Shown here: one piece after another, positions 7,882-24,507 of the stretch | Layout of the letters: every line of letters begins with the position of its first letter | Position numbering within the stretch: the stretch's first letter is position 1 | Assembly: GCF_000195275.1 (NCBI RefSeq) | Contig: NC_015385.1 | Coordinates: 1,054,001 to 1,118,000, forward strand | Reading direction: 5' to 3' | DNA: 64,000 nt | Source of the DNA: Treponema succinifaciens DSM 2489 | GTDB lineage: Bacteria; Spirochaetota; Spirochaetia; Treponematales; Treponemataceae | The notes under the pieces: model-generated | The model's input: the letters and a program-made list of their open reading frames with translations, nothing else | What the model was told of the DNA's origin: nothing | Databases searched by the model: none | Position numbers and translations under genes: made by a program

Positions 7882-7887
7882 TTATTG

Positions 7888-7920
7888 AGCCCTGGAAAAA
7901 TTCCGGGGCTTGTTTTTTTT
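7888..7920 (+). terminator. rny terminator
   Basis: 10-bp stem 7888-7897 / 7901-7910 with one G-T wobble and an AAA loop, followed by TG and eight T residues. It argues that the next gene is separate and starts at 7990 rather than at the in-frame ATG 7885. Confidence 0.9.
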
Positions 7921-7989
7921 GTATTATTGTGCTGGCGAATTTCAAATAATTTGTTTGACAAAATGCGTTTTAGGGTTCAGGATTTTATT

Positions 7990-9183
7990 ATGACAGATGT
8001 TGAAAATCTTGAAAAAATAATCCGCGATATTTTTGGTGTAAGAAAAATCATCAAGAAAAGACGGAACACAAACAAATGCATTCAGCCTCTTAACATTTAT
8101 CCGCTGAATATGTTTGCCTTCAATTTTATAAACCGCCTTACCCGGCTAAATGAAAAATTCAAGGACAATAAAGATGCGTTAAACACAATCTGCGAGCGTG
8201 TAAAAAATCTTGGCGAGGCGAAAGATTCAGGCTGGGCAGGACCTTACAGCGAGCTTGTGGCTTTGGATTTTTATTCGCAGTTTTCAGAGTTCCTTGGAAT
8301 TTCTTATATAAATCTTCTTGAAATAAAGCGGCACAAGGAAAGCATTCCGGCTAAAAACGGACAGAAAGAAAAAATCGACATTGACTTGTGCCTTTCACTT
8401 AAAAATGAAAATCTTTTTACTGATGTAAAGTCGTTCAACTGTGTGCATCAGATTATTTTTGACCGGATTTTTGAAGCGGTGGAAAATTATGCCGCAAAGG
8501 AATTTAAGAAAAACATTTTAATCGGCGTAGACAACCTTTCAAGTCTTGACTATCTTGATGTGAAAAATTCCCTTGTTTCAAAACGGCACGAGATTGAGCG
8601 GCTTTTGAAAAATGCAGTGAAGAAGAATCAGAATTTTGTTTCGTATTTTTCTGATTCAGGACTTGCGTTTAATTTTAGAATCAGCTGGCCGGGCGAGCTT
8701 TTGACTGTAAAAGATTATTCTCCGTTCGCAATGGCTCAGGCTTATAGATACAAATTCCTTGACTACGGAAACAAGCTTGTGGACAACGAATATTCGCTTA
8801 TAACAATGGTAAAAAATCCTTGGTTCAATGAAGAAACTGTGGACTTTGGAAATTTCAATAATATGTTTTACCGCTCGTTGAGCCGCCGCACTTTTATGGA
8901 GCTTGCCAAAAATGATTTTCCTGCAAAAGATTATTCTTCCGCCTATAAAACTGAAAAAATAAAAGTCTGCGATGTTTCAAAAAGCATTGCCGGAATTGTT
9001 TTTATTGATGACAACAGCGTGCGATCAAAATATTACAAAAGCCTTTATTCCGCCTACATTTATCTGAATCCGAATTACAAAAACAAAACGCCGCTTTCAA
9101 TCCGCAGCATAGAAAAATTTTTCCGCAACAAATACGAAGTTCAGATAAAAGATTTTGACGATTTCAAGTGGGATAATTATTAG
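7990..9183 (+). CDS. hypothetical protein with possible PD-(D/E)XK nuclease core
   Basis: 397 residues from ATG 7990 (AGGA 7 nt upstream; the longer frame from 7885 runs through the rny terminator). I do not recognise a named family. A suggestive segment near residues 80-140 has SELVALDFYSQF, then KEKIDIDLCLSL, then LFTDVKSF. This Glu / Asp / Asp-x-Lys spacing is seen in PD-(D/E)XK nucleases. The rest is mixed alpha/beta with many aromatic residues. No methylase or partner gene is adjacent. Codon use matches core neighbours rather than the AT-rich cassette that follows. Nuclease activity is a guess. Confidence 0.65.
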   Translation: MTDVENLEKIIRDIFGVRKIIKKRRNTNKCIQPLNIYPLNMFAFNFINRLTRLNEKFKDNKDALNTICERVKNLGEAKDSGWAGPYSELVALDFYSQFSEFLGISYINLLEIKRHKESIPAKNGQKEKIDIDLCLSLKNENLFTDVKSFNCVHQIIFDRIFEAVENYAAKEFKKNILIGVDNLSSLDYLDVKNSLVSKRHEIERLLKNAVKKNQNFVSYFSDSGLAFNFRISWPGELLTVKDYSPFAMAQAYRYKFLDYGNKLVDNEYSLITMVKNPWFNEETVDFGNFNNMFYRSLSRRTFMELAKNDFPAKDYSSAYKTEKIKVCDVSKSIAGIVFIDDNSVRSKYYKSLYSAYIYLNPNYKNKTPLSIRSIEKFFRNKYEVQIKDFDDFKWDNY

Positions 9184-9243: not shown

Positions 9244-10551
9244 ATGCAGAGACGCTTTGTCCTTTCAGTAAAAATTGTTTTGTTCGGAATTATTTTCTTT
9301 GTTTTGTCTTCAATAATAGCTTTTTTTATTAAAAATGATTCTGATGCTTATACTAGAATTCTCATGTATGAATTTAATAATCAAGAAAATATTGATGTGA
9401 TTTTTTGCGGCGCATCTCATGTAAGCCACGGAATTTATCCAAAATTAGCTGATGAAAAATTCAATTTGAATACATTTTGTACAGGAACACCTTCTCAAGG
9501 CATAGATGGAACTTATGCCATTTTATCCGCGGCAGTAAGAAAATATAAAATAAAAAAAGTTTTCTTGGAAATGGATTTTGCTGTGGCCGGCAGAGGTGAA
9601 ACTCCGTTTTTTCAGAAAACACCTTCTACAAGCGCTTATTTAGTTTCGGAATATTTGAAAGATTCAAGGGTAAAACTTGAATATCTTCTTACTGTAACAA
9701 GTCCTAAATATTATTTGAATTCACTTTTGCCAATTGGAAAAGACAAGCTGCTGGATTTAAATCCTTCAGTTATTTTTAAAACAGTAAAGTCAAAAGTAGA
9801 CGGCTCTTATTATCGGTATGAATATTCTGGAAAAGATTTTTATACAGGAAAAGGTTGTATTTTTGATAGAAAAGTTATTGCCAATGGAACTTTTTCGTCT
9901 GGATTTGAAAAACCAATCCCTGTTAAAAATATTTCAAATGAATGGAAAAATACTATTAGAAAAATTGTGAAATTGTGCAAAGAAAACAATATAAGCATTG
10001 ATTTCTATTCAAATCCAAGCAGCGATTTTTACCTTATGGAAAAAGGCAATTACGATGAATATGTTTCTTTTTTACGCTCTTTTTTAAATGAACTTGGTTA
10101 CGACTATTATGATTTTAATCTTTGCCATCCAGAATTTTTAAATCTTGAAGACTGTGATTTCAGCGATGACAATCACCTGAACAAAACAGGAATAGAAAAA
10201 TTTACATCTGTTTTTTGCGATTTCTTTAATGGAAAAATAGAAACTGACAAACTTTTTTATAAAACTTATTCTGAAAAAATTGAAAATCAGCTTCCAAAAA
10301 TTTATGGTTTAATGCTGAAAGAATCTCCTGATAAAAAATCAATCGAAATAAAACCAGTTATAAATCATGAGGGAGGGCTTGTGACTTATACAGTTTATGC
10401 TTTGTACGATGGAAAAGAAGAGATTCTTTTTGAAAATTCTAGCAACAATATTATAGTTTATCCTGCCGCAACTTCTGGAAAAATAAAAATTTTAAGTTTT
10501 TATGACGGAATCCTTAATAACACTATTATAGAAGACTACACAGCTTTTTAA
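9244..10551 (+). CDS. SGNH-fold membrane-anchored protein (DltD/AlgX-like acyl-transfer partner)
   Basis: 435 residues with one N-terminal transmembrane anchor (about 8-29) and an extracytoplasmic domain. SGNH hallmarks: IFCGASHVSHGIYP with candidate nucleophile Ser58, and DDNHLNKTG near residue 315 supplying the Asp-x-x-His pair. Such proteins work with MBOAT proteins to move acyl or aminoacyl groups onto surface polymers. First gene of a five-gene cluster; the MBOAT starts 12 nt downstream. A TATAAT (9228-9233) lies 10 nt before the ATG and there is no Shine-Dalgarno, so the transcript may be nearly leaderless. More AT-rich than rny and galK, hinting at transfer. Confidence 0.8.
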   Translation: MQRRFVLSVKIVLFGIIFFVLSSIIAFFIKNDSDAYTRILMYEFNNQENIDVIFCGASHVSHGIYPKLADEKFNLNTFCTGTPSQGIDGTYAILSAAVRKYKIKKVFLEMDFAVAGRGETPFFQKTPSTSAYLVSEYLKDSRVKLEYLLTVTSPKYYLNSLLPIGKDKLLDLNPSVIFKTVKSKVDGSYYRYEYSGKDFYTGKGCIFDRKVIANGTFSSGFEKPIPVKNISNEWKNTIRKIVKLCKENNISIDFYSNPSSDFYLMEKGNYDEYVSFLRSFLNELGYDYYDFNLCHPEFLNLEDCDFSDDNHLNKTGIEKFTSVFCDFFNGKIETDKLFYKTYSEKIENQLPKIYGLMLKESPDKKSIEIKPVINHEGGLVTYTVYALYDGKEEILFENSSNNIIVYPAATSGKIKILSFYDGILNNTIIEDYTAF

Positions 10552-10563
10552 TTTGGAAATTTT

Positions 10564-12180
10564 ATGAATTTTAGAACTTGGTCATTTTGTTTTTTTCTTG
10601 TAATTTCACTTTTTTGTTATTATAAACTTCCAAAGAAATTTCAATGGATTTGTATTTTAATTTCCAGCGTTGTCTTTTATGCTTTTAGTGGAGCTGTAAA
10701 TCTTATTTTTATTTTATTTAGTTCTTTTTTAACTTTTTATGGAGCTAAAAAAATAACATCATACAATCTTTTGCTTAGAGAAAAAAAATCTGTTTTAACA
10801 AAAGAAGATTTTAAAGTTGAAAGAGAAAATATAAAACATATAAAAAGAATTGTTCTTTTGATAGTTCTAATATTAAATATTGGTCTTTTGGCATATTTAA
10901 AATATTGGAACGCATTTGTTTCTTTTTTGGGCAATTGTTTTTTACTTAATTTTGATTTCCTGAAATTTTCCGGCTTTAGAGGCATTCTTCTTCCTCTTGG
11001 AATTTCATTTTATACATTCCAGACAACTGCATATTTCATGGATATCTATAATGGAAAATATGAAAATGAAAAGAATTTCCTGAAATATTTTACGTTTGTT
11101 TCTTTTTTTCCGCAGTTGATAATGGGACCGATTAATCGGTTTGACAAGCTTGGAATTCAGCTGAAAGAAGAGCATGAATTTGATTTTGAAAATATTAAGC
11201 ATGGTGTGCTTTTGATTTTGTTTGGTGCAATGAAAAAATATTGCATTGCTGACTTGCTTTATACTCGAATTTCTTCTGTTCTTGATCATCCTTATGATAA
11301 TCTTCCTGGCAGCTTGATTGCTTTTGGAATTTTAGCTTTTTCAATTTATCAATATGCTGATTTTTCTGGCGGAATAGATATGGTTCTAGGAATTTCAAAA
11401 TTGTTTGGGCTTGAAATGCAACCGAACTTTAAGCAGCCGTATTTTGCAAGAAACCTGGCGGACTTTTGGAGAAGGTGGCATATAAGTTTGGGATTATGGA
11501 TGAAAGACTATGTTTTTTATCCGCTTGCATTAACTCATTTTATGCAGAACATTGGAAAGTTTTTTTCTGCGCATGGCGGCAAAAAAATTGGCAAGCATTT
11601 AGCGCGCACTGTTCCTGCTGGAATTGCAAATATTGTGGTTTTTCTTCTTGTTGGAATTTGGCATGGGCCGGAACTTCATTTTGTTTTATGGGGCTTGTAT
11701 AATGGTCTTGTAATTGCTTTTAGTGATTTGTTTAAGCCGGCTTTTGAAAAATTATCTTCTATTCTTCATATTAATGTAAAAAGTAAAAGTTTTGTTGTTT
11801 TTCAAATAGTCAGAACTTTTATAGTTGTTAACATAGGCGCATATTTTGACAGGATAACAGATGTTAAAAAATGCTTTTTGTATTTGAAGCGGACATTTTT
11901 TAATTTTGGCACTTTAGAAATTTACAAATCACAAGCTTATTTAAAAAGTGTTTTCGGTAGTTTTAGATATGTAGAATCTGAACTTGTTTTAATAATTTCA
12001 GCTTCGATTATTGTTTTTATAACAAGTTTTCTAAAGGAAAATAAAGTCGATTTGTATACTGCGATACAAAAGAAAAACATTGCATTTAGGTGGAGCGCAT
12101 ATTATGTTCCGTTAATACTCGTTATTCTTTCTATGTCATTTTCTCCGTCAAATCCTGTGTTTATGTATGCCCAGTATTAA
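10564..12180 (+). CDS. MBOAT family O-acyltransferase (DltB/AlgI-like)
   Basis: 538-residue polytopic membrane protein. Family signatures: LPLGISFYTFQTTAYFMDIY (near 143-162), FFPQLIMGPINRF (near 182), ARNLADFWRRWHISLG (near 298), and VGIWHGPELHFVLWG with the invariant His at about residue 367. It should carry an acyl or aminoacyl group across the membrane from a carrier to an extracytoplasmic acceptor. Partners are the SGNH protein upstream and the adenylation, PLP and carrier genes downstream. DltB handles D-alanine in Gram-positives; the substrate here is unknown. Confidence 0.92.
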   Translation: MNFRTWSFCFFLVISLFCYYKLPKKFQWICILISSVVFYAFSGAVNLIFILFSSFLTFYGAKKITSYNLLLREKKSVLTKEDFKVERENIKHIKRIVLLIVLILNIGLLAYLKYWNAFVSFLGNCFLLNFDFLKFSGFRGILLPLGISFYTFQTTAYFMDIYNGKYENEKNFLKYFTFVSFFPQLIMGPINRFDKLGIQLKEEHEFDFENIKHGVLLILFGAMKKYCIADLLYTRISSVLDHPYDNLPGSLIAFGILAFSIYQYADFSGGIDMVLGISKLFGLEMQPNFKQPYFARNLADFWRRWHISLGLWMKDYVFYPLALTHFMQNIGKFFSAHGGKKIGKHLARTVPAGIANIVVFLLVGIWHGPELHFVLWGLYNGLVIAFSDLFKPAFEKLSSILHINVKSKSFVVFQIVRTFIVVNIGAYFDRITDVKKCFLYLKRTFFNFGTLEIYKSQAYLKSVFGSFRYVESELVLIISASIIVFITSFLKENKVDLYTAIQKKNIAFRWSAYYVPLILVILSMSFSPSNPVFMYAQY

Positions 12181-12212
12181 TCTAAAATTAATAAAATAAG
12201 GATGCTTGTAAA

Positions 12213-13718
12213 ATGAAATATACAGTTCTTGATTATCTTGAAAAAACAGCTGAAATATATCCTGATAAAGTTGCGTTTGCAGATGTTAATGATTCTATTA
12301 CTTGGAAATCTCTTGTTGATGAATCAAAATCTCTTTCTGGTGCAATTGCAAAATATTTTCCAAAAGGAACAGCTGTTCCTGTCATGTGTGAAAAATCAGT
12401 TGTTACAGTGAAATTATTTTTTGCTGCTTTATATGCTGGCTGTTTTTATTCTTTTTTCGATTTTTCATTTCCAGATGAACGTTTAAATTTAATGATAAAA
12501 ACTCTTGAAACTCCATTCATTCTAACAGATAAAAAAAGAGAGAAAAAAGTTCAGAACCTTTGTGCACAGCCGCTTTTTATAGAAGACTTGCTGGCGGAAA
12601 ATATTTGCTATAATGAAAAAAGACGTAATAATATAATAGATGTAGAACCCGTTTATGCAAATTTTACATCTGGCTCAACAGGTGTTCCTAAAGCCGTTGT
12701 AGTTTCTCATCGTTCTGTTATAGATTTTATAAGCTGTTTTACTGAAATTTTTGAAATAACTTCAGATGACAGAATTGCTAATCAAGCTCCTTTTGATTTT
12801 GATGTTTCAGTGAAAGATATTTTTTCTGCAGTTTTTACAGGCGCTTCCGTTTATCTTATCCCAAAAATGTATTTTTCATTTCCTGTAAAACTTTTGGATT
12901 TCCTTTGTGAGAATCAGATTACAACTCTTATCTGGGCTGTTTCTGCTTTGTGCATAATTTCAACATTGAATGGATTTTCTTATAAAATTCCAACGTCAAT
13001 AAAAAAGATTATGTTTTCAGGCGAAGTTATGCCGATAAAGCAGCTGAAAATATGGAAAAAATATATTCCAGATGCAAAATATGTAAATCTTTTCGGACCT
13101 ACAGAAATAACCTGCAACTGTTCATATTTTATAATTCCAGATGAAATTCCAGATGATTATGATATTCCAATTGGAAAGCCGTTCCCTAATGAAAGAATTT
13201 TACTTATTGATGAAAATGAAAATCTTATAGCAGAAAATGACACTGAATCAAAAGGTGAAATTTGCGTGTCTGGAACTTGTGTTTCGCTTGGCTACATAAA
13301 TAATAGCAAAACGAATGAGGTTTTTATTCAGAATCCATTGAACAAAAAATATTTTGAAAGAATCTACAAAACTGGCGATCTTGGACGCTATGGAAAAGAT
13401 GGAAATCTTTACTATCTTGGCCGCAAAGATAATCAGATAAAGCACATGGGACACAGAATTGAGTTGTCTGAAATTGAAAAAGGAATAGAAAAAATATGCA
13501 CAATATCAAGGGCTTGCTGTATTTTTTTTGAAAATAAAATAACTGCTTTTTATACAGGCTCTCAAACTGAAAAAAAAGAAATAGTTTTTCAACTGAAATC
13601 AATTCTTCCTGCATACATGATTCCAGCTGATTTTCTTTTTATAAAAGAATTTCCTGTAACAAAAAATGGAAAAATTGATAAGAATATTTTAAAAGGACTA
13701 ATGAATGAAAAGTCATAA
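12213..13718 (+). CDS. amino-acid adenylating enzyme (DltA-like, AMP-dependent ligase)
   Basis: 501-residue stand-alone adenylation domain. Core motifs: FTSGSTGVPKAVVVSHRS (A3, near 150-167), FGPTEITCNCSY (A5, near 292), YKTGDLGRYGKDGNLYYLGR (A7-A8, near 386-405), and C-terminal FPVTKNGKIDKN with the catalytic Lys. It should activate an amino acid or similar acid as acyl-AMP and load the carrier protein encoded two genes downstream. The motif order matches DltA, but substrate specificity cannot be read by eye. Its 3' end overlaps the PLP gene by 14 nt. Confidence 0.9.
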   Translation: MKYTVLDYLEKTAEIYPDKVAFADVNDSITWKSLVDESKSLSGAIAKYFPKGTAVPVMCEKSVVTVKLFFAALYAGCFYSFFDFSFPDERLNLMIKTLETPFILTDKKREKKVQNLCAQPLFIEDLLAENICYNEKRRNNIIDVEPVYANFTSGSTGVPKAVVVSHRSVIDFISCFTEIFEITSDDRIANQAPFDFDVSVKDIFSAVFTGASVYLIPKMYFSFPVKLLDFLCENQITTLIWAVSALCIISTLNGFSYKIPTSIKKIMFSGEVMPIKQLKIWKKYIPDAKYVNLFGPTEITCNCSYFIIPDEIPDDYDIPIGKPFPNERILLIDENENLIAENDTESKGEICVSGTCVSLGYINNSKTNEVFIQNPLNKKYFERIYKTGDLGRYGKDGNLYYLGRKDNQIKHMGHRIELSEIEKGIEKICTISRACCIFFENKITAFYTGSQTEKKEIVFQLKSILPAYMIPADFLFIKEFPVTKNGKIDKNILKGLMNEKS

Positions 13719-14874
13719 TTTTAAGGAACTTGCAGAAAAATATGGAACGCCTTTTTATCTTTTTGATTTTGAGATATTAAAAAATCGAATTGAGCTGTTA
13801 AATAATAAGCTTCCTAAAAATGCTGAGCTTTGCTATGCTATAAAGGCTAACGCTTTTTTACTTCAGGCTTTGAAAGATTTGAAAATTCTTTTTGAAGTTT
13901 GTTCTAATGGGGAACTTTCTATTTGCCATAAATACAATGTAAATCCTAATCATATTGTTTTTTCCGGCGTAGTAAAAACAAAAGAAGATATAAAAAATGC
14001 GTGGAAAATGCACGTTAACACAATAACGCTGGAATCTCTTGAACATTGCCGATTTTTAAAAGAAGTTGCAAATGAAGAAAATGGCGATTACATTCAAAAT
14101 GTTTTAATTAGGCTTTCAAGCGGAAACCAGTTTGGAATGTCAGAAAATGATGTTTTGGATGCTCTGAAAATTTTAAAGCAGTTAAAAAATGTAAATTTTA
14201 GAGGCGTTCATTATTTTTCAGGTACTCAAAAAAAATTAAAAAAAATAGAAACTGAAATTCAATATATTCAGGATTATTGTGACAATCTTCAAAAAATGTC
14301 TGGAATTGAATTCAATGAAATAGAATATGGTCCGGGATTTTCATTTGATTATTTTGCGCAGCCAGATTTTTCTGAAAACTATAATGACTTTGACGCTGTT
14401 GCAGGCTTGTTGGAAAAATCAAAATATAAATTTACAATTGAAGCAGGACGTTTTATTGCATCTTCGTGCGGATTTTATGTTTCAAGGATAATGGATCTAA
14501 AATCTACAAATGATGTAAATTATTGCTTGATAGATGGCGGCATAAATCATTTGAATTATTATGGCCAGATAATGGGAATGAAAATTCCGCCTGTTTCTCT
14601 TGTAAAAAATAATACTGACGCGAAATCTGATAAATGTGCCAGTTTTGAAATTTGCGGTTCTCTTTGCACAACAGCTGATGTGATTACAAAATGTTTGTCG
14701 CTTGATTCTCCTGCTATAGGCGATTTCCTTGTTTTTAAAAACATTGGCGCGTATTCTGTTACAGAAGGCATTTATTTGTTTTTAAGCCATGCGTTGCCGT
14801 GTGTGATTTCCTATGATAAAATGGAATATAAAATTTTAAGACAAAGTTTTGAAACATATAAAATAAATTCATAA
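13705..14874 (+). CDS. fold type III PLP-dependent enzyme (DAP/ornithine decarboxylase or BtrK-like)
   Basis: 389 residues. N-terminal TIM barrel with the Schiff-base Lys in CYAIKANAF (Lys47), FEVCSNGEL, a VLIRLSSGNQFG strand, HYFSGTQ, and TIEAGRFI. The C-terminal beta domain has CGSLCTTADVI, containing the Cys usual in decarboxylases, and GAYSVTEGIYLFL. dlt operons do not normally encode this enzyme. Triads of ligase, PLP decarboxylase and acyl carrier are known in exosortase-A loci, and in butirosin synthesis BtrK decarboxylates glutamate held on a carrier. Decarboxylation of a carrier-bound amino acid is therefore an attractive inference; racemisation or a free substrate is also possible. 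Confidence 0.85.
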   Translation: MKSHNFKELAEKYGTPFYLFDFEILKNRIELLNNKLPKNAELCYAIKANAFLLQALKDLKILFEVCSNGELSICHKYNVNPNHIVFSGVVKTKEDIKNAWKMHVNTITLESLEHCRFLKEVANEENGDYIQNVLIRLSSGNQFGMSENDVLDALKILKQLKNVNFRGVHYFSGTQKKLKKIETEIQYIQDYCDNLQKMSGIEFNEIEYGPGFSFDYFAQPDFSENYNDFDAVAGLLEKSKYKFTIEAGRFIASSCGFYVSRIMDLKSTNDVNYCLIDGGINHLNYYGQIMGMKIPPVSLVKNNTDAKSDKCASFEICGSLCTTADVITKCLSLDSPAIGDFLVFKNIGAYSVTEGIYLFLSHALPCVISYDKMEYKILRQSFETYKINS

Positions 14875-14893
14875 TAATAAGGATGGTTGATTT

Positions 14894-15115
14894 ATGGAAA
14901 AATTACTTGAAATTCTTACAGAGCTTAAACCTGATGTAGATTTCTCTACGGAAAAAAATCTTATTGACAATGCTGTTCTTGACTCATTTGACATTGTCCA
15001 ATTGATTTCTCAGCTAAATGATGCGTTTGATATTGAAATTACGCCAGCTGATATTATTCCTGAAAATTTCAATTCAGCTGAAAGCCTTTGGGCTATGATT
15101 CAAAAACTTCAATAA
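14894..15115 (+). CDS. phosphopantetheine-binding carrier protein (DltC/ACP-like)
   Basis: 73 residues, acidic, four-helix carrier pattern. The attachment serine is Ser31 in AVLDSFDIVQLI. It should be the thioester carrier loaded by the adenylating enzyme and used by the MBOAT protein. RBS AAGGATG lies 10 nt before the ATG, 19 nt after the PLP gene. Last gene of the plus-strand cluster; the next gene converges with only 5 nt between stops. Confidence 0.9.
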   Translation: MEKLLEILTELKPDVDFSTEKNLIDNAVLDSFDIVQLISQLNDAFDIEITPADIIPENFNSAESLWAMIQKLQ

Positions 15116-16486: not shown

Positions 16487-17311
16487 TCAATATAATCTTA
16501 GCTTTATTAAAATTAATTTAAGAAAATCTTTTATTATATTTTTCTTCATTTTATCAACAACCTTTAGCTTTTTATAGAATTTAATATTATTTTCGTCAAA
16601 TATACATTCATTTCTAGTAAATAAAGAATCTTCAATCGTTTCTGGCATCCTGTTCCAAGCGCTTACATCAGTTCTTTTCTTTGTTGCTGCGCGATCTTTT
16701 ATTCTTTTTTCTATTTGCTGCGGACTTCGATATTGATAATGTTTTACAAGTATTTTTTCTGGTGCCATAATACCGATATTCATAGGATATTGGCTTGCAA
16801 CTCCATTGTCCCATTGTATATTTTTTCTATATCTAAAAAATCTGCCTTCTGACCAGCATGTCGGTTTTAAATATTTTATATACATTTTATCTTCTTCAAA
16901 GTTTCCAGAAAAATCATATTCTTTTAAATCCTCTTTTGTAAGAACATAATCAATAGATTTTTTAGAAACCCATTAGAATCTTTTTGGTATTCTTTGCAAA
17001 AAATCTCTGGGATTCTCAATATAAAATTCATCTGCATCCAGCGCATAACACCACCAGTCTTCTTTTGTAGAAAGATGTCGGAATTCATTAAAAACATCAG
17101 CTCTCATTCCTCTTCTGAATGAGCCAAAATCTTGTTTCCATGGAGTGATTATTTCATTCTTCATGGATTTTATAATTTCCCAGGTTCCGTCGGTTGAACC
17201 ATTGTCTATTATAAAGATTTTATCAGCCCACTTTTCAGCTTCTTTTAAAACATAGCCAACAATATCGGCTTCATTTTTTACAAGCATTATCGCAAAGATT
17301 TTCATATCCAC
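16487..17311 (-). pseudogene. GT2-like glycosyltransferase interrupted by one in-frame stop
   Basis: Two open segments (17311-16973 and 16885-16487) lie in the same frame. The codons between them also read through apart from a single TAA at 16973-16975. The joined product matches the intact paralogue at 17364-18197 end to end: MKIFAIMLVKNEADIV, FIIDNGSTDGTWEII, WWCYALDADEFY, then SIDYVLTKEDLKEYDFSG, CWSEGRFFRYRK, ILVKHYQYRSP. In the paralogue the stop position is Ser, so one C-to-A change (TCA to TAA) explains it. No good Shine-Dalgarno precedes the start, in contrast to the paralogue. Probably a recent pseudogene; readthrough is not excluded. Confidence 0.85.
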
Positions 17312-17363: not shown

Positions 17364-18197
17364 TTAGAAAAGTTTTAAGGCAATTCCAATCCGCAGAATA
17401 ATTCTTTTAAGCAGTGGCTGCTGTAAAGAATTGCGGACAGGTATTTCTCTGTACCCCCCCCCATGAGATTTTATGTCGTTGTTATCAAGCAGGCAATTTT
17501 TTTTGTCTGCTAAAAGTTCTTTGTAATTTGTCTCTTTTACGTGTCTGAAGCAAATTCCGTCTTTTTTGTTTGCAAGTGAATTGCGTAAATCAAGCCTTGC
17601 TTGCATTTGCTTTGGAGAGCGGAACTGATAATGCTTTACAAGTATTAACTCTGGCGCTAAAAGTCCTGCGAATTTAGGGTAGTGTGATGTGGCGTCAAAA
17701 TTCCATTTTAATGATTTTCTATAGCGGAAGAATCTTGGTTCGCTCCAGCAGCTATTCTTTAAATGCATTATATGTTCTTTATCTTTTTCAAAATCTCCGG
17801 AAAAATCATACTCTTCCACATCTTCTGTTGTTAAAACGTAGTCAAGAGATTGTTTTGCAACTAATGAATACTTTTTAGGAATCTTCGCAAGAAATTCTTT
17901 TGGATTGTCATAATAAAATTCGTCTGCATCAAGTTTAAAGCACCACCAGTCTCCGTCGCTTGCTTCATGTCTGAATTCATTGAATACATCTGCTCTAAGT
18001 CCGTTTGAATAAGGTCTGAAATCCTGCTTCCATGGCACAACTATGTCATCTGCAAGGGACTGTATGATTTCCCATGTTCCGTCGGTTGAACCGTTGTCCA
18101 TTATGAATATTCTGTCAGCCCAGGTTTTTGCGTCAAGAATAACACTTTTTACTATGTCAGCCTCGTTTTTCACGAGCATTATGGCAAATATTTTCAT
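17364..18197 (-). CDS. GT2-like glycosyltransferase with poly-G tract near its 3' end
   Basis: 277 residues: MKIFAIMLVKNEADIVKSV, FIMDNGSTDGTWEII, and FKLDADEFYYDNP with the Asp-x-Asp motif. The C-terminal domain has CWSEPRFFRYRK and LVKHYQFRSPKQM. No transmembrane segments. A G9 run (17454-17462, G on the minus strand) encodes Gly-Gly-Gly about 30 residues before the end. With nine G the protein is full length; a change of one base would replace the last helical segment and alter the stop. AAGGAC precedes the ATG. Likely part of the phase-variable surface-glycan machinery. Confidence 0.85.
   Translation of the reverse strand: MKIFAIMLVKNEADIVKSVILDAKTWADRIFIMDNGSTDGTWEIIQSLADDIVVPWKQDFRPYSNGLRADVFNEFRHEASDGDWWCFKLDADEFYYDNPKEFLAKIPKKYSLVAKQSLDYVLTTEDVEEYDFSGDFEKDKEHIMHLKNSCWSEPRFFRYRKSLKWNFDATSHYPKFAGLLAPELILVKHYQFRSPKQMQARLDLRNSLANKKDGICFRHVKETNYKELLADKKNCLLDNNDIKSHGGGYREIPVRNSLQQPLLKRIILRIGIALKLF
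17454..17462 (-). repeat. G9 homopolymer inside a glycosyltransferase gene
   Basis: Nine consecutive C on the plus strand. On the coding strand they read CAT GGG GGG GGG TAC. Long enough for slipped-strand mispairing; currently in frame. Confidence 0.85.
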
Positions 18198-18446: not shown

Positions 18447-18551
18447 ATGTATGTTTCCATATTTAATGCAAGATTTTTGACGGGGGGGGGACAAGTAGTC
18501 TTCCGTTTTGTTCTATCTGTGCCAGAGGAAAATTATGGCGCAGATAATTAA
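18447..18551 (+). CDS. phase-variable leader peptide upstream of the ketoisomerase gene
   Basis: A 34-residue frame: MYVSIFNARFL, then T-G-G-G from a G9 tract, ending SVPEENYGADN. It has an ideal GGAGA 8 nt before its ATG. Its stop (18549-18551) lies 14 nt beyond the start of the next gene (18535), so translation of the two overlaps. Changing the tract to 8 or 11 G brings a TAG at 18496-18498 into frame, 37 nt short of that start. A homologous leader precedes the gene at 24508. I infer a translation-coupling switch; it could also be an incidental remnant. Confidence 0.6.
   Translation: MYVSIFNARFLTGGGQVVFRFVLSVPEENYGADN
18482..18490 (+). repeat. G9 homopolymer in leader peptide
   Basis: Nine consecutive G inside the 18447-18551 leader frame, flanked by TTGAC and ACAAG. 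Confidence 0.9.
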
Positions 18552-18903
18552 TCTTCCTACCTTTTCAGATGAGCGCGGCTCTCTTACTGTTATAGAAAAA
18601 CTTCTTCCATTTGAAATCAAGCGCATTTACTACATCTACAATGCAAAAGAAAAACGCGGTGGACACAGGCATTTAAAGACAACCCAGGCTCTCGTTTGTC
18701 CAAAAGGCTCATGCGAAATTTTTATAAATAACGGAAATTCGGAACAGACTGTTCTTCTTGATTCTCCAGAAAAATGTCTTATCCTTTCACCAGAAGACTG
18801 GCACTCAATGGACAAATTTACATCAGACTGCGTGCTTCTTGTTTTGGCATCTGAATTTTTTGATAAAGCTGATTATATAGAAGAGGAGTATCCACGTGAT
18901 TGA
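18535..18903 (+). CDS. FdtA/WxcM-like sugar 3,4-ketoisomerase (cupin)
   Basis: 122-residue single cupin. Characteristic motifs: FSDERGSLTVIE, IYYIYNAKEKRGGHRHLKTTQ with the catalytic His pair, and LSPEDWHSMDKFTSD. The family isomerises dTDP-4-keto-6-deoxyglucose to the 3-keto sugar, the step before 3-amination. ATG at 18535 follows AGAGGAAAATT. An upstream in-frame TTG would add nine residues with no support. It overlaps the aminotransferase by 8 nt. Which epimer is made (galacto or gluco) cannot be told from motifs. Control by the upstream poly-G leader is inferred. Confidence 0.88.
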   Translation: MAQIINLPTFSDERGSLTVIEKLLPFEIKRIYYIYNAKEKRGGHRHLKTTQALVCPKGSCEIFINNGNSEQTVLLDSPEKCLILSPEDWHSMDKFTSDCVLLVLASEFFDKADYIEEEYPRD

Positions 18904-19993
18904 GTATGAAAATTTAGGAAAGTTGAATAGACCTTTCTTTGACGAATATAAAAAATCTTTCGAAACTGTTCTTGATTCAGGATGGTATATTTTAGGAAAT
19001 CAGGTTGCTGAATTTGAAAAGGAATTTGCTGCTTTCTGCGGCGTAAAATATTGTGTTGGTGTTGCGAACGGACTTGAGGCTCTTACAATTTCATTGAAAG
19101 CTTTCGATTTTCCGGCTGGTTCAGAAGTTATTGTTCCTTCAAACACTTATATTGCGACAATTCTTGCGATTGTAAATGCTAACTTAAAGCCCGTGCTTGT
19201 TGAGCCAGAAATTACAACGTATAACATTGATGTTTCTAAAATTGAAAATGCGATAACATCAAAAACAAAAGCTATTATGCCAGTTCATCTTTATGGAAGA
19301 ATGGCTAATATGCCGGCAATCATTGAAATTGCTAAAAAATACAATTTGAAGATTGTTGAAGATGCTGCTCAGGCACACAACGCTTCCATAAACGGAAAGA
19401 AAGTTGGCTCTTGGGGCGAATTCACAGCATTCAGCTTTTATCCTACAAAAAATCTTGGCGCGCTAGGAGATGCCGGAGCTATAACAACTGACAACGAGGA
19501 GCTTTATAATAAAGTAAAAGCTCTTAGAAATTATGGTTCAAATATAAAATATCATAATGAATATATTGGTGAAAATTCAAGACTTTCAGAAGTTCAGGCT
19601 TCTTTTCTTAGAATAAAACTGAAAAAACTGGAAGAAATTACATGCCATAAAGAAAAACTTGCAGACATTTATTACTCAATGTTAAGCGGCACAGACTTTA
19701 TTCTTCCGGCAAAACTAGAAGGGTATCGTCACGTTTATCATATCTTTAATATCCGCTCAAAAAGGCGTGATGAACTAAAATCGTTTCTTCTTGAAAATGG
19801 TGTAAAAACTGAAATTCATTATCCTGTTGCTCCAAACAGACAGCTTGCCATGAAAGGAATTCTTGATAATTTTGAAACTCCTATAGCAGAAGAAATCCAT
19901 AACACAACATTGAGCCTGCCGATTTCATATTTTCACACAGAACAGGATATTGAGCAGGTTTGCGATGTTTTAAGAAAATTCAACAATAAATAA
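18896..19993 (+). CDS. DegT/DnrJ/EryC1 sugar aminotransferase (FdtB-like)
   Basis: 365-residue PLP aminotransferase that should aminate the 3-keto sugar made by the upstream isomerase, giving dTDP-3-amino-3,6-dideoxyhexose. Motifs: VGVANGLEALTISLKA, VEDAAQAHNASINGKKVGSWG, and FSFYPTKNLGALGDAGAI with the PLP lysine; late RHVYHIFNIR. GTG start at 18896 with GAGGAG upstream, overlapping the previous gene. Acetylation of the amino sugar would need another enzyme; none is evident nearby. Confidence 0.9.
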   Translation: MIEYENLGKLNRPFFDEYKKSFETVLDSGWYILGNQVAEFEKEFAAFCGVKYCVGVANGLEALTISLKAFDFPAGSEVIVPSNTYIATILAIVNANLKPVLVEPEITTYNIDVSKIENAITSKTKAIMPVHLYGRMANMPAIIEIAKKYNLKIVEDAAQAHNASINGKKVGSWGEFTAFSFYPTKNLGALGDAGAITTDNEELYNKVKALRNYGSNIKYHNEYIGENSRLSEVQASFLRIKLKKLEEITCHKEKLADIYYSMLSGTDFILPAKLEGYRHVYHIFNIRSKRRDELKSFLLENGVKTEIHYPVAPNRQLAMKGILDNFETPIAEEIHNTTLSLPISYFHTEQDIEQVCDVLRKFNNK

Positions 19994-20001
19994 GGAAAAT
20001 T

Positions 20002-20916
20002 ATGAAACTTTCTATTTGCATTCCTGTTTATAACGGAGCTGATACAATCTGCCCCCTTATGGAAAATTTGGACTCAACGTTTTCTAATATTGAAAAAGAA
20101 GTTGTTCTTGTGAATGATGGCAGCCGCGATAACAGCGCAGAAGTGTGCAAGGATTTGTGTAAAAAATATGATTATGTGAAGTTTATAAATCTAAGGCGAA
20201 ATTTCGGTGAGCATAATGCCGTGATGTGCGCTTTGAATTATTGCACAGGAGACTATGCGGTAATTATTGATGATGATTTGCAGAATCCTCCGGAAGAAAT
20301 TTTTAAACTTTTGAATGAAATCGAAAAAGGCTATGATGTTGTTTATTCAAAATATCATGTGAAAAAACATCATTGGTTTAGAAATTTTGGAAGCAAAGTG
20401 AATGATATTTTTGCAACATGGCTTATCGGTAAACCGAAAAATCTTTATTTGTGCAGTTTTAAAATTATAAACCGGGCGATGATTGACGAGTTGAAGAAAT
20501 ATAAAGGGCCGTTTCCTTATATTGACGGACTTTTGCTTAGGGCAACAAACAATGTTTCTTCTGTGTTTGTTGAGCATAAGGCAAGAACTCAAGGCAAATC
20601 TAATTACACGTTAGGAAAACTTCTGAATTTATGGCTTAGTATGTTTATAAATTTTTCAATAAAGCCAATGCGTTTTATTACAATTACAGGTTTGACTATT
20701 TCGTTTATTTCTGTGGTTATGGCGTTGTTTTTTATTGTAGAAAAAATTTTAAATCCGCAGACAGTTCCTGGCTGGACAACTATAATCGTTCTGCTTCTTT
20801 TCTTTGGCGGACTGCAGAGTACTTTTCTTGGAATAATTGGCGAGTACATTGGAAAGAACTATCTTGATCAAAACAATACACCTCAGTGGGTTGTAAAAGA
20901 AACATTTGGAGTCTGA
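20002..20916 (+). CDS. ArnC/DPM-like polyprenyl-phosphate glycosyltransferase
   Basis: 304 residues: LSICIPVYNGADTICPLMENLD, EVVLVNDGSRDNS, INLRRNFGEHNAVMCAL and AVIIDDDLQNPPEEI, the DPM1/ArnC signature. Two C-terminal transmembrane helices follow (about 225-247 and 258-280). It probably transfers a sugar, perhaps the FdtA/FdtB amino sugar, to undecaprenyl phosphate on the cytoplasmic face. AAGGAAAATT precedes the ATG, 8 nt after fdtB-like. It fits a three-part glycosylation set with the small carriers and YfhO-like proteins downstream. Confidence 0.9.
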   Translation: MKLSICIPVYNGADTICPLMENLDSTFSNIEKEVVLVNDGSRDNSAEVCKDLCKKYDYVKFINLRRNFGEHNAVMCALNYCTGDYAVIIDDDLQNPPEEIFKLLNEIEKGYDVVYSKYHVKKHHWFRNFGSKVNDIFATWLIGKPKNLYLCSFKIINRAMIDELKKYKGPFPYIDGLLLRATNNVSSVFVEHKARTQGKSNYTLGKLLNLWLSMFINFSIKPMRFITITGLTISFISVVMALFFIVEKILNPQTVPGWTTIIVLLLFFGGLQSTFLGIIGEYIGKNYLDQNNTPQWVVKETFGV

Positions 20917-20925
20917 TTATTTATT

Positions 20926-23625
20926 ATGGAAAATGTTATTGAAAAAAAGTCGTTGTTAAAAAATGTTTATGCAAAATATTCCTTGCTTTTCTGCCTGTTA
21001 GTTCCTTTATGTTTTTTCCAATTTTTTGTATATGGAAAATCGTTTCTTGTTCATGATGGTCTTAATGAGCATACAGCATTCCTAGCTTTTTATGGTGAAT
21101 GGCTTAGAAATATAATATGTAATATTTTTCATGGAAAATTTATTGTTCCGACTTTCTCTTTTTCTTTAGGATTTGGAGCAGATGTTATATCGACTTTGAA
21201 TTGGTTTTGTGTTGGAGATCCTTTAAATCTTGTTTCTGTTTTTGTTCCAAAAGAAGGCTCTTATGTTCTCTTTGTTGTACTGGCTATTATTCGCCTTTAT
21301 TTGATGGGCATTGCTTTTATTGTTTTTTGCAGGAAGAAGACATTCTTTAATACATCTGTTGTTTTTGGTGCTTTGGCATACTCTTTTTGCGGGTATGCGA
21401 TTTTTGTCGGTCTTAGGCATCCTTATTTTTTAAATCCTATGATTTACTTTCCAATGCTTTGTCTTGGAATTGATTTTATTTTAGAAAAAAAGAGTCCATT
21501 TCTTTTTATAATAACAGTCTTTATTTCTTGTGCATGTAATTATTACTTTTTTTATATGCTTTCTATTTTCGTCTTTATATACGCAATCGTGCGTTTTTTC
21601 TTTGTTGACACTTCAGATAAAAAAATAAATGCTTTTGTTAAAGTTTTTTTTAAAACTGCCGGATTTTATTTTATAGGTGTCGCCTTAGCAGCATTTATTC
21701 TTTTTCCAAATATTTACGGTTTTTTTACAGCGTCAAGAACAACTGAAAAAATCAATGTTTCGTTGCTTTATGATTTTAATTATTATGCAAATTTGTTTTT
21801 TTCACCTTCAGCTCCACCATCATTTGGCTCGTACGGAAATTTGGGATTTGCTGCGCCGGTTTTATTGTTCTTGCTTTTTTTATTTACTCAGAAAGATTCA
21901 GTTTCAAAACAATTGAAAATTTATCTTTTGATTGGACTTGCATTTTTTGTTGTTCCATTTTTAGCTCATGTTACAAACGGATTTAATTATATAACGAACA
22001 GATGGTCTTTTATTTTTGCATTTCCTGTTTGTATTGCATTTGTCCATGTTTTTCCAAAATTCTGTTCTGCCTCAAAAGAAAATATAAAATTGCCTATATT
22101 TCTTGTAATGGCACACTCGTTAATTATATTGGCAGTTTGCTGTATAGACAGAAATGTAAGGCAACAATATTTTGTTTGCTATGCATTTTCATTGATATTT
22201 TTAATTTCAACTTATTTGCTTTTTGTAAAGAATAAAAATACATTCTTGCAAAAATTTATCTATTTCTTTGTGTTTTTAGGAATTATTGTAAATTCAAACG
22301 TTAGGTTTTCTCCTTACGGGCTTAATTATCTGGAAAAATATACAAATTATGGAAGCTATGAGAAAAATCTAAAATCTAATACTGATATTGAAATAAAAAA
22401 GCTTCCAGATGATGATTTTTTTAGATATGATGAAGAGCAAAAGTTTACTGCGAATAATTCAGTTATCTTTGGAACGCATGGAACAAATTATTATTATAGC
22501 ATTTCAGATATACACTTGATGCAGCTTTATGAAGAGCTTTGCCTTGCAACAACCAACAATATGAGATGTTCAAGCCTGAACCGGCGTTCTGCATTGCAGA
22601 ATTTGTTTGCAGTAAAATATTTCGTTCTTCCTACGGAAACAGAATACGCACCTGAATACATGACTTTTGTAAAAGAGTTTGATACTTACGGCGGCAGGAA
22701 AAAGCTGTTCAAACTGAACAATCCTTCGCCGTTTGCCGTGCCGTATAAAAATGTTTTGTATGCAGATAATAATTTTGAGAATCTGAATCCTATTGAAAAG
22801 CAGGAGCTGTTCCTGGACACAGCAGTCATTTATGATGAAAAATCTGAAGACAATACTGATGGGCAGGAGCTAAAACTGAATTCAAAAGTTTTTTGCAAAA
22901 ATGTTTCTTTTATCGGAAATGATGATGTGAAAATTGAAGAGGGCAAGATAATCACAAGGAAGAAAAACGCGACATTTGAGATTGACTTTTCAGGCGATGA
23001 GGATTTCGACTCAGAAAAAGAGCTTTATCTCTTGTTCAAGAATTTCTATTACACGACAGACCGTTATGAGCAGTTTAAGCCGCAGATTAGATTTGTCTCG
23101 TCATCAGGCAAAGAAGAAAAGTTCTCATTCGGGATGACAAACGCGAATGACAGCATGGGGCATAACAGAATGCCGTGCTTCGGTCTGCAAGAGTGCAAGT
23201 CTGGAAAATTCTTTGTTACGCTTGAAAACAAAGGCGTGTATGAATTTGATGAAATATCAGTTTTCGCACTTGATATTTCCGATAGAGATGAAAAGTTTAA
23301 TTCGATAGATAGAGAGGAAATCAGCAATCTTGCATTTGTGGAAAATAAAATTTCACTTGAGACTTCATTGAATGAAAAACAGTTCGTAAGATTTTCAATG
23401 CCATACTCAAAAGGCTGGAAGATTTTTATAGACGGCAAAGAGACAAAGTCTTATAGATGCGACATTGCATTTATAGGAACGTTTGTGGATGCAGGAAATC
23501 ATTCGGTTGTCCTGAAGTACAGCACGCCGTTCTTGGCTGCAGGGCTTGTCACGTCATTTATAGGATTGATTGCTCTTGTTGCTTTATGTTTTTATTTAAA
23601 ATCAAGAAAAAAAGAAAATGAATAA
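20926..23625 (+). CDS. YfhO-family membrane protein (putative GT-C glycosyltransferase), copy 1
   Basis: 899 residues. About a dozen transmembrane helices fill residues 15-460, with the early loop SFSLGFGADVISTLNWFCVGDPLNLV typical of YfhO. The soluble C-terminal half ends FSMPYSKGWKIFIDGKETKS, then a final transmembrane helix and a basic tail. YfhO proteins are thought to transfer sugars from lipid-phosphate donors to surface polymers outside the membrane. Downstream of the ArnC-like enzyme and overlapping a small carrier gene by 8 nt. Its 3' kilobase is almost identical to copy 2 while the 5' part has diverged, indicating gene conversion. Confidence 0.85.
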   Translation: MENVIEKKSLLKNVYAKYSLLFCLLVPLCFFQFFVYGKSFLVHDGLNEHTAFLAFYGEWLRNIICNIFHGKFIVPTFSFSLGFGADVISTLNWFCVGDPLNLVSVFVPKEGSYVLFVVLAIIRLYLMGIAFIVFCRKKTFFNTSVVFGALAYSFCGYAIFVGLRHPYFLNPMIYFPMLCLGIDFILEKKSPFLFIITVFISCACNYYFFYMLSIFVFIYAIVRFFFVDTSDKKINAFVKVFFKTAGFYFIGVALAAFILFPNIYGFFTASRTTEKINVSLLYDFNYYANLFFSPSAPPSFGSYGNLGFAAPVLLFLLFLFTQKDSVSKQLKIYLLIGLAFFVVPFLAHVTNGFNYITNRWSFIFAFPVCIAFVHVFPKFCSASKENIKLPIFLVMAHSLIILAVCCIDRNVRQQYFVCYAFSLIFLISTYLLFVKNKNTFLQKFIYFFVFLGIIVNSNVRFSPYGLNYLEKYTNYGSYEKNLKSNTDIEIKKLPDDDFFRYDEEQKFTANNSVIFGTHGTNYYYSISDIHLMQLYEELCLATTNNMRCSSLNRRSALQNLFAVKYFVLPTETEYAPEYMTFVKEFDTYGGRKKLFKLNNPSPFAVPYKNVLYADNNFENLNPIEKQELFLDTAVIYDEKSEDNTDGQELKLNSKVFCKNVSFIGNDDVKIEEGKIITRKKNATFEIDFSGDEDFDSEKELYLLFKNFYYTTDRYEQFKPQIRFVSSSGKEEKFSFGMTNANDSMGHNRMPCFGLQECKSGKFFVTLENKGVYEFDEISVFALDISDRDEKFNSIDREEISNLAFVENKISLETSLNEKQFVRFSMPYSKGWKIFIDGKETKSYRCDIAFIGTFVDAGNHSVVLKYSTPFLAAGLVTSFIGLIALVALCFYLKSRKKENE

Positions 23626-23974
23626 GAAAATATTATCTTTATTAAAACTGCATCTTTTGGTTATTGTATATTCCTTAAGCACAGTTTTTTCAAAATTCGC
23701 AGGGCAGCAGGAATTTCTTTCGTCAAAGTTTATTATATTTACATTTTTATTATTTTTATGTCTTGGAGTCTATGCTTTTTTTTGGCAAAAAATTCTTTCA
23801 AATTTTAATCTTTCTGTTGCTTATGCAAACCGTGCGGCTGATTTGCTTTGGGGAATTATTTTAGGAGCAGTGTTTTTTGCGGAAAAAGTTACTTTCACAA
23901 AAGTAGTCAGCGTCATTCTTGTCTTTTTAGGAATAATTCTTGTTATACGTTCTGAAAAAACAAAAGGGGTTTGA
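23618..23974 (+). CDS. SMR/EamA-type small membrane carrier (ArnE-like), first of pair
   Basis: 118 residues with four predicted helices: LLKLHLLVIVYSLSTVFSKFAG, IIFTFLLFLCLGVYAFFW, RAADLLWGIILGAVFF, and VVSVILVFLGIILVI. Half-size EamA-like proteins of this kind flip drugs or, as ArnE/ArnF, lipid-linked aminosugars. Placed next to an ArnC-like transferase and a YfhO protein, a glycolipid-flipping role is the best inference. The ATG overlaps the YfhO stop by 8 nt. A relic of this gene's first codons also follows YfhO copy 2 at 27231. Confidence 0.8.
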   Translation: MNKKILSLLKLHLLVIVYSLSTVFSKFAGQQEFLSSKFIIFTFLLFLCLGVYAFFWQKILSNFNLSVAYANRAADLLWGIILGAVFFAEKVTFTKVVSVILVFLGIILVIRSEKTKGV

Positions 23975-23977
23975 TCA

Positions 23978-24322
23978 ATGGATGAAAAAATGATTTTTTC
24001 TGCAGTTTTCCTTTTAGGAGTTTTGATTTCAAGTTTTTCACAAATTCTTTTAAAAAAAAGTGCAGGGCAGAATGGAAGTTCCGGAATAAAAGCTTATTTG
24101 AATCCTCTTGTTATAATTTCATACAGCCTTTTTGTATTCTCAACATTGCTTTCGTTGTTGTGCCTAAAATTCATACCTTTATCAAAAGCTCCAGTCCTTG
24201 ATTCTGCCTCTTATATTTTTGTAGCGGTTTTAAGCAGATTTTTTTTCAATGAAAAGCTTAATGTTCAAAAGGTCGCCGGTTTTATTTTTATTATAGCTGG
24301 AATTTTTGTTTCAAGTTTTTAA
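23978..24322 (+). CDS. SMR/EamA-type small membrane carrier (ArnF-like), second of pair
   Basis: 114 residues, four helices: MIFSAVFLLGVLISSFSQILLKKSAG, LVIISYSLFVFSTLLSLLCL, ASYIFVAVLSRFFFNEKLN, and VAGFIFIIAGIFVSSF. It pairs with the preceding gene 3 nt upstream, as expected for a heterodimer. The SFSQILLKKSAGQNG segment is the half-EamA signature. Likely flips a lipid-linked sugar; substrate unknown. Confidence 0.8.
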   Translation: MDEKMIFSAVFLLGVLISSFSQILLKKSAGQNGSSGIKAYLNPLVIISYSLFVFSTLLSLLCLKFIPLSKAPVLDSASYIFVAVLSRFFFNEKLNVQKVAGFIFIIAGIFVSSF

Positions 24323-24357
24323 GATTGATTTAGTGTTTTGTTATCTAAAAGTGTTTA

Positions 24358-24386
24358 TATACAATTTTACTTAATAAATATATAAT
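24358..24386 (+). promoter_or_regulatory. promoter of the second phase-variable leader
   Basis: -35 TATACA (24358-24363), 17-nt spacer, -10 TATAAT (24381-24386), matching the upstream unit at 18387-18415, followed by GGAGA at 24405-24409. The rest of the 24323-24507 gap is the leader frame below. Confidence 0.65.
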
Positions 24387-24417
24387 AGTTAAAATTTTTT
24401 ATTTGGAGATGCGGTTT

Positions 24418-24471
24418 ATGCATATTTTCATATTTAGTTCAAGACATTTGTCGGGGGGGGGGTACAACTAA
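24418..24471 (+). CDS. phase-variable leader peptide upstream of YfhO copy 2
   Basis: Homologue of the 18447 leader: MHIFIFSSRHLS-GGG, with GGAGA 8 nt before its ATG. With the present G10 tract it stops at 24469-24471, 36 nt before the next gene. With 8 or 11 G it would run to a TAA at 24522-24524, 14 nt past the gene start. That is exactly the offset seen at the first locus, with a conserved ending (SV-E-N-G). I read the present state as uncoupled; that interpretation needs experimental proof. Confidence 0.55.
   Translation: MHIFIFSSRHLSGGGYN
24453..24462 (+). repeat. G10 homopolymer in leader peptide
   Basis: Ten consecutive G inside the 24418 leader frame, flanked by TTGTC and TACAAC. 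Confidence 0.9.
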
Positions 24472-24507
24472 CCCCTTGTTTTATTAATTCTGTGCTGGAG
24501 AAAAACG

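Follow-up and report, generated by a model that had tools for sequence, protein, structure and literature searches.

A Dlt-like gene cassette with a BtrK-like decarboxylase in Treponema succinifaciens: a probable carrier-fed envelope acylation system

In the Dlt system (DltABCXD), an ANL ligase loads a stand-alone carrier protein, and a DltB-like membrane-bound O-acyltransferase (MBOAT) together with a DltD-like SGNH protein passes the acyl group to an envelope polymer. The resulting D-alanyl esters matter for charge and for resistance to antimicrobial peptides in Gram-positive bacteria, and the literature covered here describes no carrier-fed MBOAT-SGNH pathway besides Dlt. The non-Dlt pathways, such as PatA-PatB and AlgI-AlgJ, use acyl-CoA and are hence described without a carrier protein (PMC12148441). 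Decarboxylation at the level of a carrier was previously known, in the same literature, from antibiotic pathways. Here, we analyze a five-gene cassette at positions 9244–15115 of a 64,000-nucleotide stretch of Treponema succinifaciens DSM 2489 (the window; NC_015385.1, positions 1,054,001–1,118,000), which is probably a carrier-fed envelope acylation system with on-carrier decarboxylation.

The antibiotic precedents are close in enzyme content. VinN-VinO-VinL (vicenistatin) and the FlvN pathway (fluvirucin B2) share with the predicted pathway of the cassette an adenylation-domain (A-domain) ligase that places an aspartate-type acid on a stand-alone acyl carrier protein (ACP), where a pyridoxal 5'-phosphate (PLP) enzyme decarboxylates it; they differ in that the product primes a polyketide synthase instead of going to an envelope polymer, and the beta13-beta14 loop, one residue shorter in VinN, may differ as well. 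BtrI-BtrJ-BtrK (butirosin) contributes BtrK, a glutamyl-S-carrier decarboxylase and the closest solved relative of the cassette's PLP enzyme, although the Btr pathway makes a side chain of an antibiotic and BtrJ is not known to be an ANL ligase. The first two systems are thus precedents for carrier-bound aspartate-type acids (PMC11284099), and BtrI-BtrK for glutamate (PMC7857480). A first-pass annotation of this DNA had instead drawn the parallel with the ligase, decarboxylase and carrier triads of exosortase-A loci. That parallel stands as a distant likeness, for both enzyme families are shared (TIGR03098 and TIGR03099), but not as an assignment: the ligase scored 184.4 bits against a cut-off of 592.35 and the PLP enzyme 175.8 against 478.45, and no exosortase was seen among the neighbors scanned. 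The Vin, Flv and BtrI-BtrK systems are the better precedents.

Cassette layout and transfer machinery

All five open reading frames (ORFs) lie where the first-pass annotation had placed them, in the order SGNH, MBOAT, ligase (LIG), PLP enzyme (PLP) and carrier (ACP):

9244–10551, + strand: SGNH, DltD-like acyltransferase, 435 aa, with an N-terminal transmembrane helix, an SGNH domain and an additional C-terminal all-beta (FN3-like) domain
9415–9417, + strand: Ser58 of SGNH, putative nucleophile (CGASHVSHG), conserved in 29/29
10564–12180, + strand: MBOAT, DltB-like membrane O-acyltransferase, 538 aa, PF03062
12160–12177, + strand: FMYAQY, C-terminal acyl-shuttle motif of the FxYxxF type, from comparison of MBOAT C-termini
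12213–13718, + strand: LIG, stand-alone A-domain ligase related to DltA, 501 aa, PF00501
12801–12815, + strand: LIG pocket residues D197 (amino group), V198 and K201; D197, L198 and M201 in DltA
13017–13019, + strand: LIG Ser269, at the position of DltA Cys269 (D-Ala determinant), from alignment to DltA
13705–14874, + strand: PLP, fold-III PLP decarboxylase, BtrK-like, 389 aa, from phmmer and Foldseek
13843–13845, + strand: Lys47 of PLP, Schiff-base lysine, conserved in 80/80
14665–14670, + strand: Cys321-Thr322 of PLP, general-acid Cys followed by Thr as in BtrK and SbnH, both 80/80
14894–15115, + strand: ACP, DltC-like carrier protein, 73 aa, PF00550
14984–14986, + strand: Ser31 of ACP, phosphopantetheine attachment site (LDSFD), conserved in 59/59

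The genes are tightly spaced and AT-rich, as had been claimed. Successive gaps measure 12, 32, -14 and 19 bp, which leaves no room inside the cassette for a separate DltX microprotein, and the GC content is 0.302, against 0.42-0.45 in two genes farther upstream and a genome-wide value of 39.1% (PMC3156407). Purine-rich AAGGA-type stretches precede the starts of LIG, PLP and ACP, and Rfam gave no match across window positions 7000–28000. Ortholog searches with LIG, MBOAT and PLP found one close LIG, one MBOAT of the cassette type and one PLP ortholog in the T. succinifaciens genome; therefore, no separate dlt operon was seen there.

The MBOAT matches PF03062 (E 2.5e-17), and its matches in the PDB are DltB alone (8jem and 6bug), while it reaches only 154.9 bits against the cut-off of 375 of the DltB family model TIGR04091. 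His306 and His367 are conserved in 62/62 sequences. The C-termini of its homologs fit FxYxx[FY] with few exceptions, the protein of the window ending in FMYAQY; in PatA and DltX, the tyrosine of FxYxxF bears the acyl group (PMC12148441). Since the MBOAT terminates in this acyl-shuttle motif, the cassette reads, by its sequence, as a hybrid that would be carrier-fed as in Dlt, with the function of DltX fused to the MBOAT as in PatA. It resembles PatA-PatB and AlgI-AlgJ in the terminal shuttle and the paired SGNH transferase and differs from them in its linked ligase and carrier. PMC12148441, which presents the other MBOAT-SGNH pathways without a carrier, does not describe the combination of a carrier-fed MBOAT and a shuttle of its own.

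The SGNH protein has no Pfam match, and a PDB profile search with its alignment returned a single chance match (E 0.054). Its AlphaFold2 model (pLDDT 83) is nonetheless matched best by DltD, which accounts for all eight top PDB matches (including 6pfx, 3bma, 7dxm and 6o93) at modest TM-scores of 0.3-0.4, so that the predicted likeness to DltD is one of fold. Alongside the invariant Ser58, Asp308 is conserved in 27/29 and His311 in 29/29 sequences, in the canonical order S...DxxH; the motif is circularly permuted in AlgJ and AlgX (PMC9487903) but not here. The ACP matches PF00550, with weak matches to DltC and AmcB models of NCBIfam, those of DltC falling below cut-off, and Ser31 is kept throughout the 59 sequences compared.

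Gene linkage, decarboxylase and ligase pocket

One scan of species genomes for PLP returned 287 relatives, so the cassette is not a chance assembly. Eighty loci were fetched from these, spanning Treponema, Lachnospiraceae, Eubacterium, Gemmiger, Solobacterium, an Atopobiaceae actinomycete and two metagenome-assembled genomes labelled Bacteroides; scans of viral_contigs with PLP and LIG gave no match. The neighborhood check proposed in the first-pass annotation, MBOAT-SGNH beside ligase, PLP enzyme and carrier, turned out positive: among the 45 loci with full flanks, a ligase is nearby in 44, a carrier in 39 and both MBOAT and SGNH in 36, and SGNH accompanies every MBOAT (36/36). The five genes recur in many orders and orientations and are the only recurring families near PLP, any other being present in at most 14 of the 80 loci. 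Eight genomes without a local MBOAT/SGNH were searched, and five of them hold a strong full-length MBOAT elsewhere; likewise, three Treponema genomes lacking ACP at the locus carry a 74% ACP ortholog at another site.

The unbiased test is a ligase-only search of 59 genomes of the genus. Close LIG orthologs, all with the pocket residues D-V-K, were found in the same nine genomes as PLP, and an MBOAT ortholog (at least 57% identity) in 11 of the 59, including all nine; the hypergeometric probability of this co-occurrence is 4e-9, uncorrected for kinship. Three distant ligases (about 41%) have no PLP and other pockets. Two of their genomes (G043 and G055) keep orthologous SGNH and MBOAT genes, with MBOATs 70% and 60% identical to that of the window, and in the tree these MBOATs occupy two separate positions within the PLP-bearing Treponema clade, which suggests that donor modules have been swapped on a conserved MBOAT-SGNH transfer pair. 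A separate Treponema locus (L062:5592-14977) contains LIG-PLP-ACP together with a second LIG-ACP pair of DltA-like pocket, and also two MBOATs of the cassette clade beside an SGNH gene.

The PLP enzyme, which the first-pass annotation had recognized as a fold-III enzyme extra to dlt, is BtrK-like both by sequence and by predicted fold. It carries the Orn/DAP/Arg decarboxylase domains PF02784 and PF00278, and its closest solved relatives by phmmer are BtrK (E 2.4e-31), SbnH and LysA, in that order. Foldseek reproduces this order, with BtrK at ranks 1-2, using an AlphaFold2 model whose low-confidence loops (280-292, 321-326 and 355-361) contain active-site motifs. All 80 sequences share Lys47, Glu246, Gly248, Arg249, Cys321, Thr322, Asp325 and Tyr350. 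The Cys-Thr signature of BtrK and SbnH is thus universal in this set, while the in-genome LysA-type paralog (L003; diaminopimelate, DAP) has Cys-Glu and RPGMY (RPxMY) and the ornithine decarboxylase-type paralog has Cys-Asp. An identity with LysA was rejected, at 176.7 bits against the 297.9-bit cut-off of TIGR01048 and with RPxxY and Cys-Glu absent. Being closest to BtrK and having no acidic residue after the catalytic Cys, the enzyme would belong to the BtrK/VinO type. For both BtrK and SbnH, the substrate is an amino acid that already bears an acyl or thioester linkage at its distal end (PMC7857480). Activity on free DAP or ornithine only, the outcome that would have undone the initial proposal, appears unlikely, as the residues that bind these substrates are missing.

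LIG matches AMP-binding PF00501 (E 8e-51) and falls below the cut-offs of TIGR01733 and of the DltA models, reaching 262.8 bits against 559.85 for the DltA equivalog. It aligns to Bacillus cereus DltA (3fcc and 3dhv) with D197 in register, and three residues of the DltA pocket (PMC11253843) are replaced: L198 by V198, M201 by K201 and C269 by S269. LIG is therefore no DltA of the D-Ala type. In the fetched loci, 70 of the 79 ligases share D-V-K, WAV(S/T), Ser269 and CNC, and these are the PLP-partnered ones. The D-V-K ligase lies within 142 bp of PLP in all measured loci but three, which are spaced by 2.9 kb and hold the MBOAT, SGNH and ACP genes in between. Ligases without a PLP partner, in the same or other genomes, have other pockets, and those of PLP-less cassettes look more DltA-like: in the LIG-ACP cassettes of G043 and G055, the pocket reads D-N-L, with Asn-Leu in place of Val-Lys, and Cys269 is present as in DltA.

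Predicted chemistry and competing explanations

Loss of the alpha-carboxyl is impossible for an alpha-aminoacyl group on a carrier; the tether must therefore run through another carboxyl of the acid, and Lys201 could hold the free carboxylate of such a substrate. Residues F231 and S299 of VinN and the engineered A236V of TycA are tied to the activation of beta-amino acids (PMC11253843), and the bulkier residues of the VinN type at positions 236 and 301 (GrsA numbering) are present here as V198 and S269. This likeness favors aspartate and a beta-alanyl product, as in the FlvN pathway (PMC11284099). Aspartate is the leading candidate, at somewhat less than an even chance; glutamate is a weaker possibility, and some other acid is slightly less probable again. 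The GABA-type (gamma-aminobutyric) group first suggested for the carrier has fared accordingly in part only: decarboxylation on the carrier has comparative backing, but the pocket fits an aspartate-derived beta-amino acyl group at least as well as GABA itself.

From these comparisons, we infer a four-step route, together with its substrate and acceptor. LIG would adenylate an acidic amino acid by its side-chain carboxyl, preferably L-Asp via the beta-carboxyl and next L-Glu via the gamma-carboxyl, and load it onto holo-ACP. The PLP enzyme would then strip the free alpha-carboxyl of the tethered acid, giving an omega-aminoacyl thioester (beta-alanyl-S-ACP or GABA-S-ACP). The acyl group would move to the tyrosine of the FMYAQY motif at the MBOAT C-terminus, at the membrane's outer face, from where the DltD-like SGNH protein would accept it on Ser58 and pass it to an envelope polymer as an ester of one of the polymer's hydroxyls, which would increase positive charge. 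This comparative evidence gives good support to the core idea of the first-pass annotation, Dlt logic combined with on-carrier decarboxylation; it comprises a BtrK-like enzyme with its Cys-Thr pair, a ligase pocket linked to PLP, gene linkage and conserved catalytic and shuttle motifs.

Certain observations weigh against this proposal. The alignment of LIG to DltA is ungapped, so that the shortened beta13-beta14 loop of VinN is not seen. A ligase with no PLP nearby (L148) has Lys at position 201 in an otherwise different pocket, and the D-V-K ligases form one clade in the tree, so the association between pocket and PLP may reflect a single evolutionary event. Because the 80 loci were fetched through PLP, they are informative only where PLP-partnered ligases are set against the others. 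Nine of the 45 loci with full flanks lack MBOAT/SGNH genes in the vicinity. Finally, the G043 and G055 assemblies are 72% and 88% complete, which makes the absence of PLP from them uncertain.

An alternative order of events, in which PLP decarboxylates a free amino acid (lysine from DAP, or GABA or beta-alanine from Glu or Asp) and LIG then loads the product, would lead to a surface lysine or omega-amino acid without any on-carrier chemistry. The enzyme is indeed homologous to LysA (TIGR01048, E 5.6e-52) and shares the fold of DAP decarboxylase; however, it has neither RPxxY nor Cys-Glu, both present in the in-genome LysA-type paralog, and K201 of the PLP-partnered ligases suits a substrate whose second carboxylate is still present. 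Moreover, VinO acts only once the thioester has formed (PMC11284099). We consider this order unlikely. A little less probable is that LIG-PLP-ACP makes a small molecule, such as a siderophore, antibiotic or lipid, next to MBOAT and SGNH genes by coincidence. Related triads (Vin and Btr) do serve antibiotics, and MBOAT/SGNH genes are missing within 7.5 kb of some Lachnospiraceae triads, yet both genes adjoin the triad in 36 of the 45 fully flanked loci in many orders and orientations, they co-occur with it in the genus even when unlinked (G001 and G017), and families of nonribosomal peptide synthetases, polyketide synthases and siderophores were not seen among the recurrent neighbors examined.

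It is very improbable that PLP is a racemase or epimerase of a carrier-bound or free amino acid, which would make the cassette a D-amino acid system near ordinary Dlt. A weak Pfam match to Ala_racemase_N and the common fold superfamily speak for such a role; against it stand the decarboxylase C-terminal domain PF00278, the general-acid Cys and Thr, invariant as in BtrK and SbnH, the decarboxylases listed as best structural matches, and the loss of the D-Ala determinant Cys269 from the ligase. Acylation with decarboxylation on the carrier thus remains the preferred explanation.

Neighboring genes, acceptor and biological meaning

The glycan region reported beside the cassette contains GT2 genes, FdtA, a DegT aminotransferase and an ArnC/PgfS-like GT2. 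Window positions 18508–27237 (+ strand) encode FdtA, the DegT aminotransferase, the ArnC/PgfS-like GT2, two half-size EamA transporters and two YfhO proteins. By family content, this set points to multi-component transmembrane glycosylation, with an envelope glycan built by way of polyprenyl-phosphate sugars. Elsewhere in Treponema, TagF-like genes and YidC-sulfatase fusions are among the neighbors of the cassette, and these would fit a polyol-phosphate polymer as acceptor. Since the neighborhood varies among loci, the acceptor, a glycan or a polyol-phosphate polymer, is not fixed by it.

Several neighbors deserve description in their own right. Directly upstream of the cassette, window positions 7885–9183 (+ strand) hold a 432 aa ORF without a Pfam match at a threshold as loose as E 0.1; this ORF is 96% conserved in the closest relative and present in no other fetched locus. 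Two ORFs at 16487–17311 (- strand) jointly resemble a disrupted duplicate of the GT2 gene found at 17364–18197. A fusion of about 900 aa between YidC/Oxa1 (PF02096) and the sulfatase superfamily (PF00884) recurs near the cassette in Treponema, often beside a TagF-like PF04464 gene, and has two copies elsewhere in this genome; it had been a candidate YfhO protein like those of the window, which the Pfam result displaced. Examples are:

L053:15663-18377, - strand: YidC-sulfatase fusion
L113:9640-12360, + strand: YidC-sulfatase fusion
L180:7769-10525 (= G000:C1:1583769-1586525), + strand: YidC-sulfatase fusion

At L180:11794-13764 (+ strand), a nucleotidyltransferase fused to a class I aminotransferase adjoins the TagF-like gene; we take it to resemble the PntC-AEP (2-aminoethylphosphonate) transaminase proteins of phosphonate tailoring. 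An arginase gene lies just upstream of LIG in six close Treponema loci without a local ACP (L046, L047, L049, L050, L055 and L113, the last above the TIGR01229 cut-off). A basic ligase substrate, considered on account of this gene, was rejected, as the six loci are a single group of near relatives and the gene does not occur outside it.

In the open-access literature, no report was found of teichoic acid or O-antigen esterified with beta-alanyl or GABA groups. To our knowledge, neither this class of surface ester nor on-carrier donor chemistry has been described for any known envelope acylation pathway. We see even chances for the proposal that a widespread system of gut bacteria, present in spirochaetes, Bacillota and Actinomycetota, esterifies envelope polymers with beta-alanyl (or GABA) groups that are formed on a Dlt-like carrier by decarboxylation, using a carrier-fed, shuttle-bearing MBOAT. 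If true, the gene set carried by a gut spirochaete and by many unrelated gut bacteria would make a new relative of the D-alanine coat known from Gram-positive surfaces, and a decarboxylating sister pathway of Dlt in diderm spirochaetes and common gut Lachnospiraceae would contribute a new surface group. It would also demonstrate that a conserved MBOAT-SGNH pair can be served by interchangeable donor modules, and the cassette offers a testable link between the ligase pocket and the presence of the decarboxylase.

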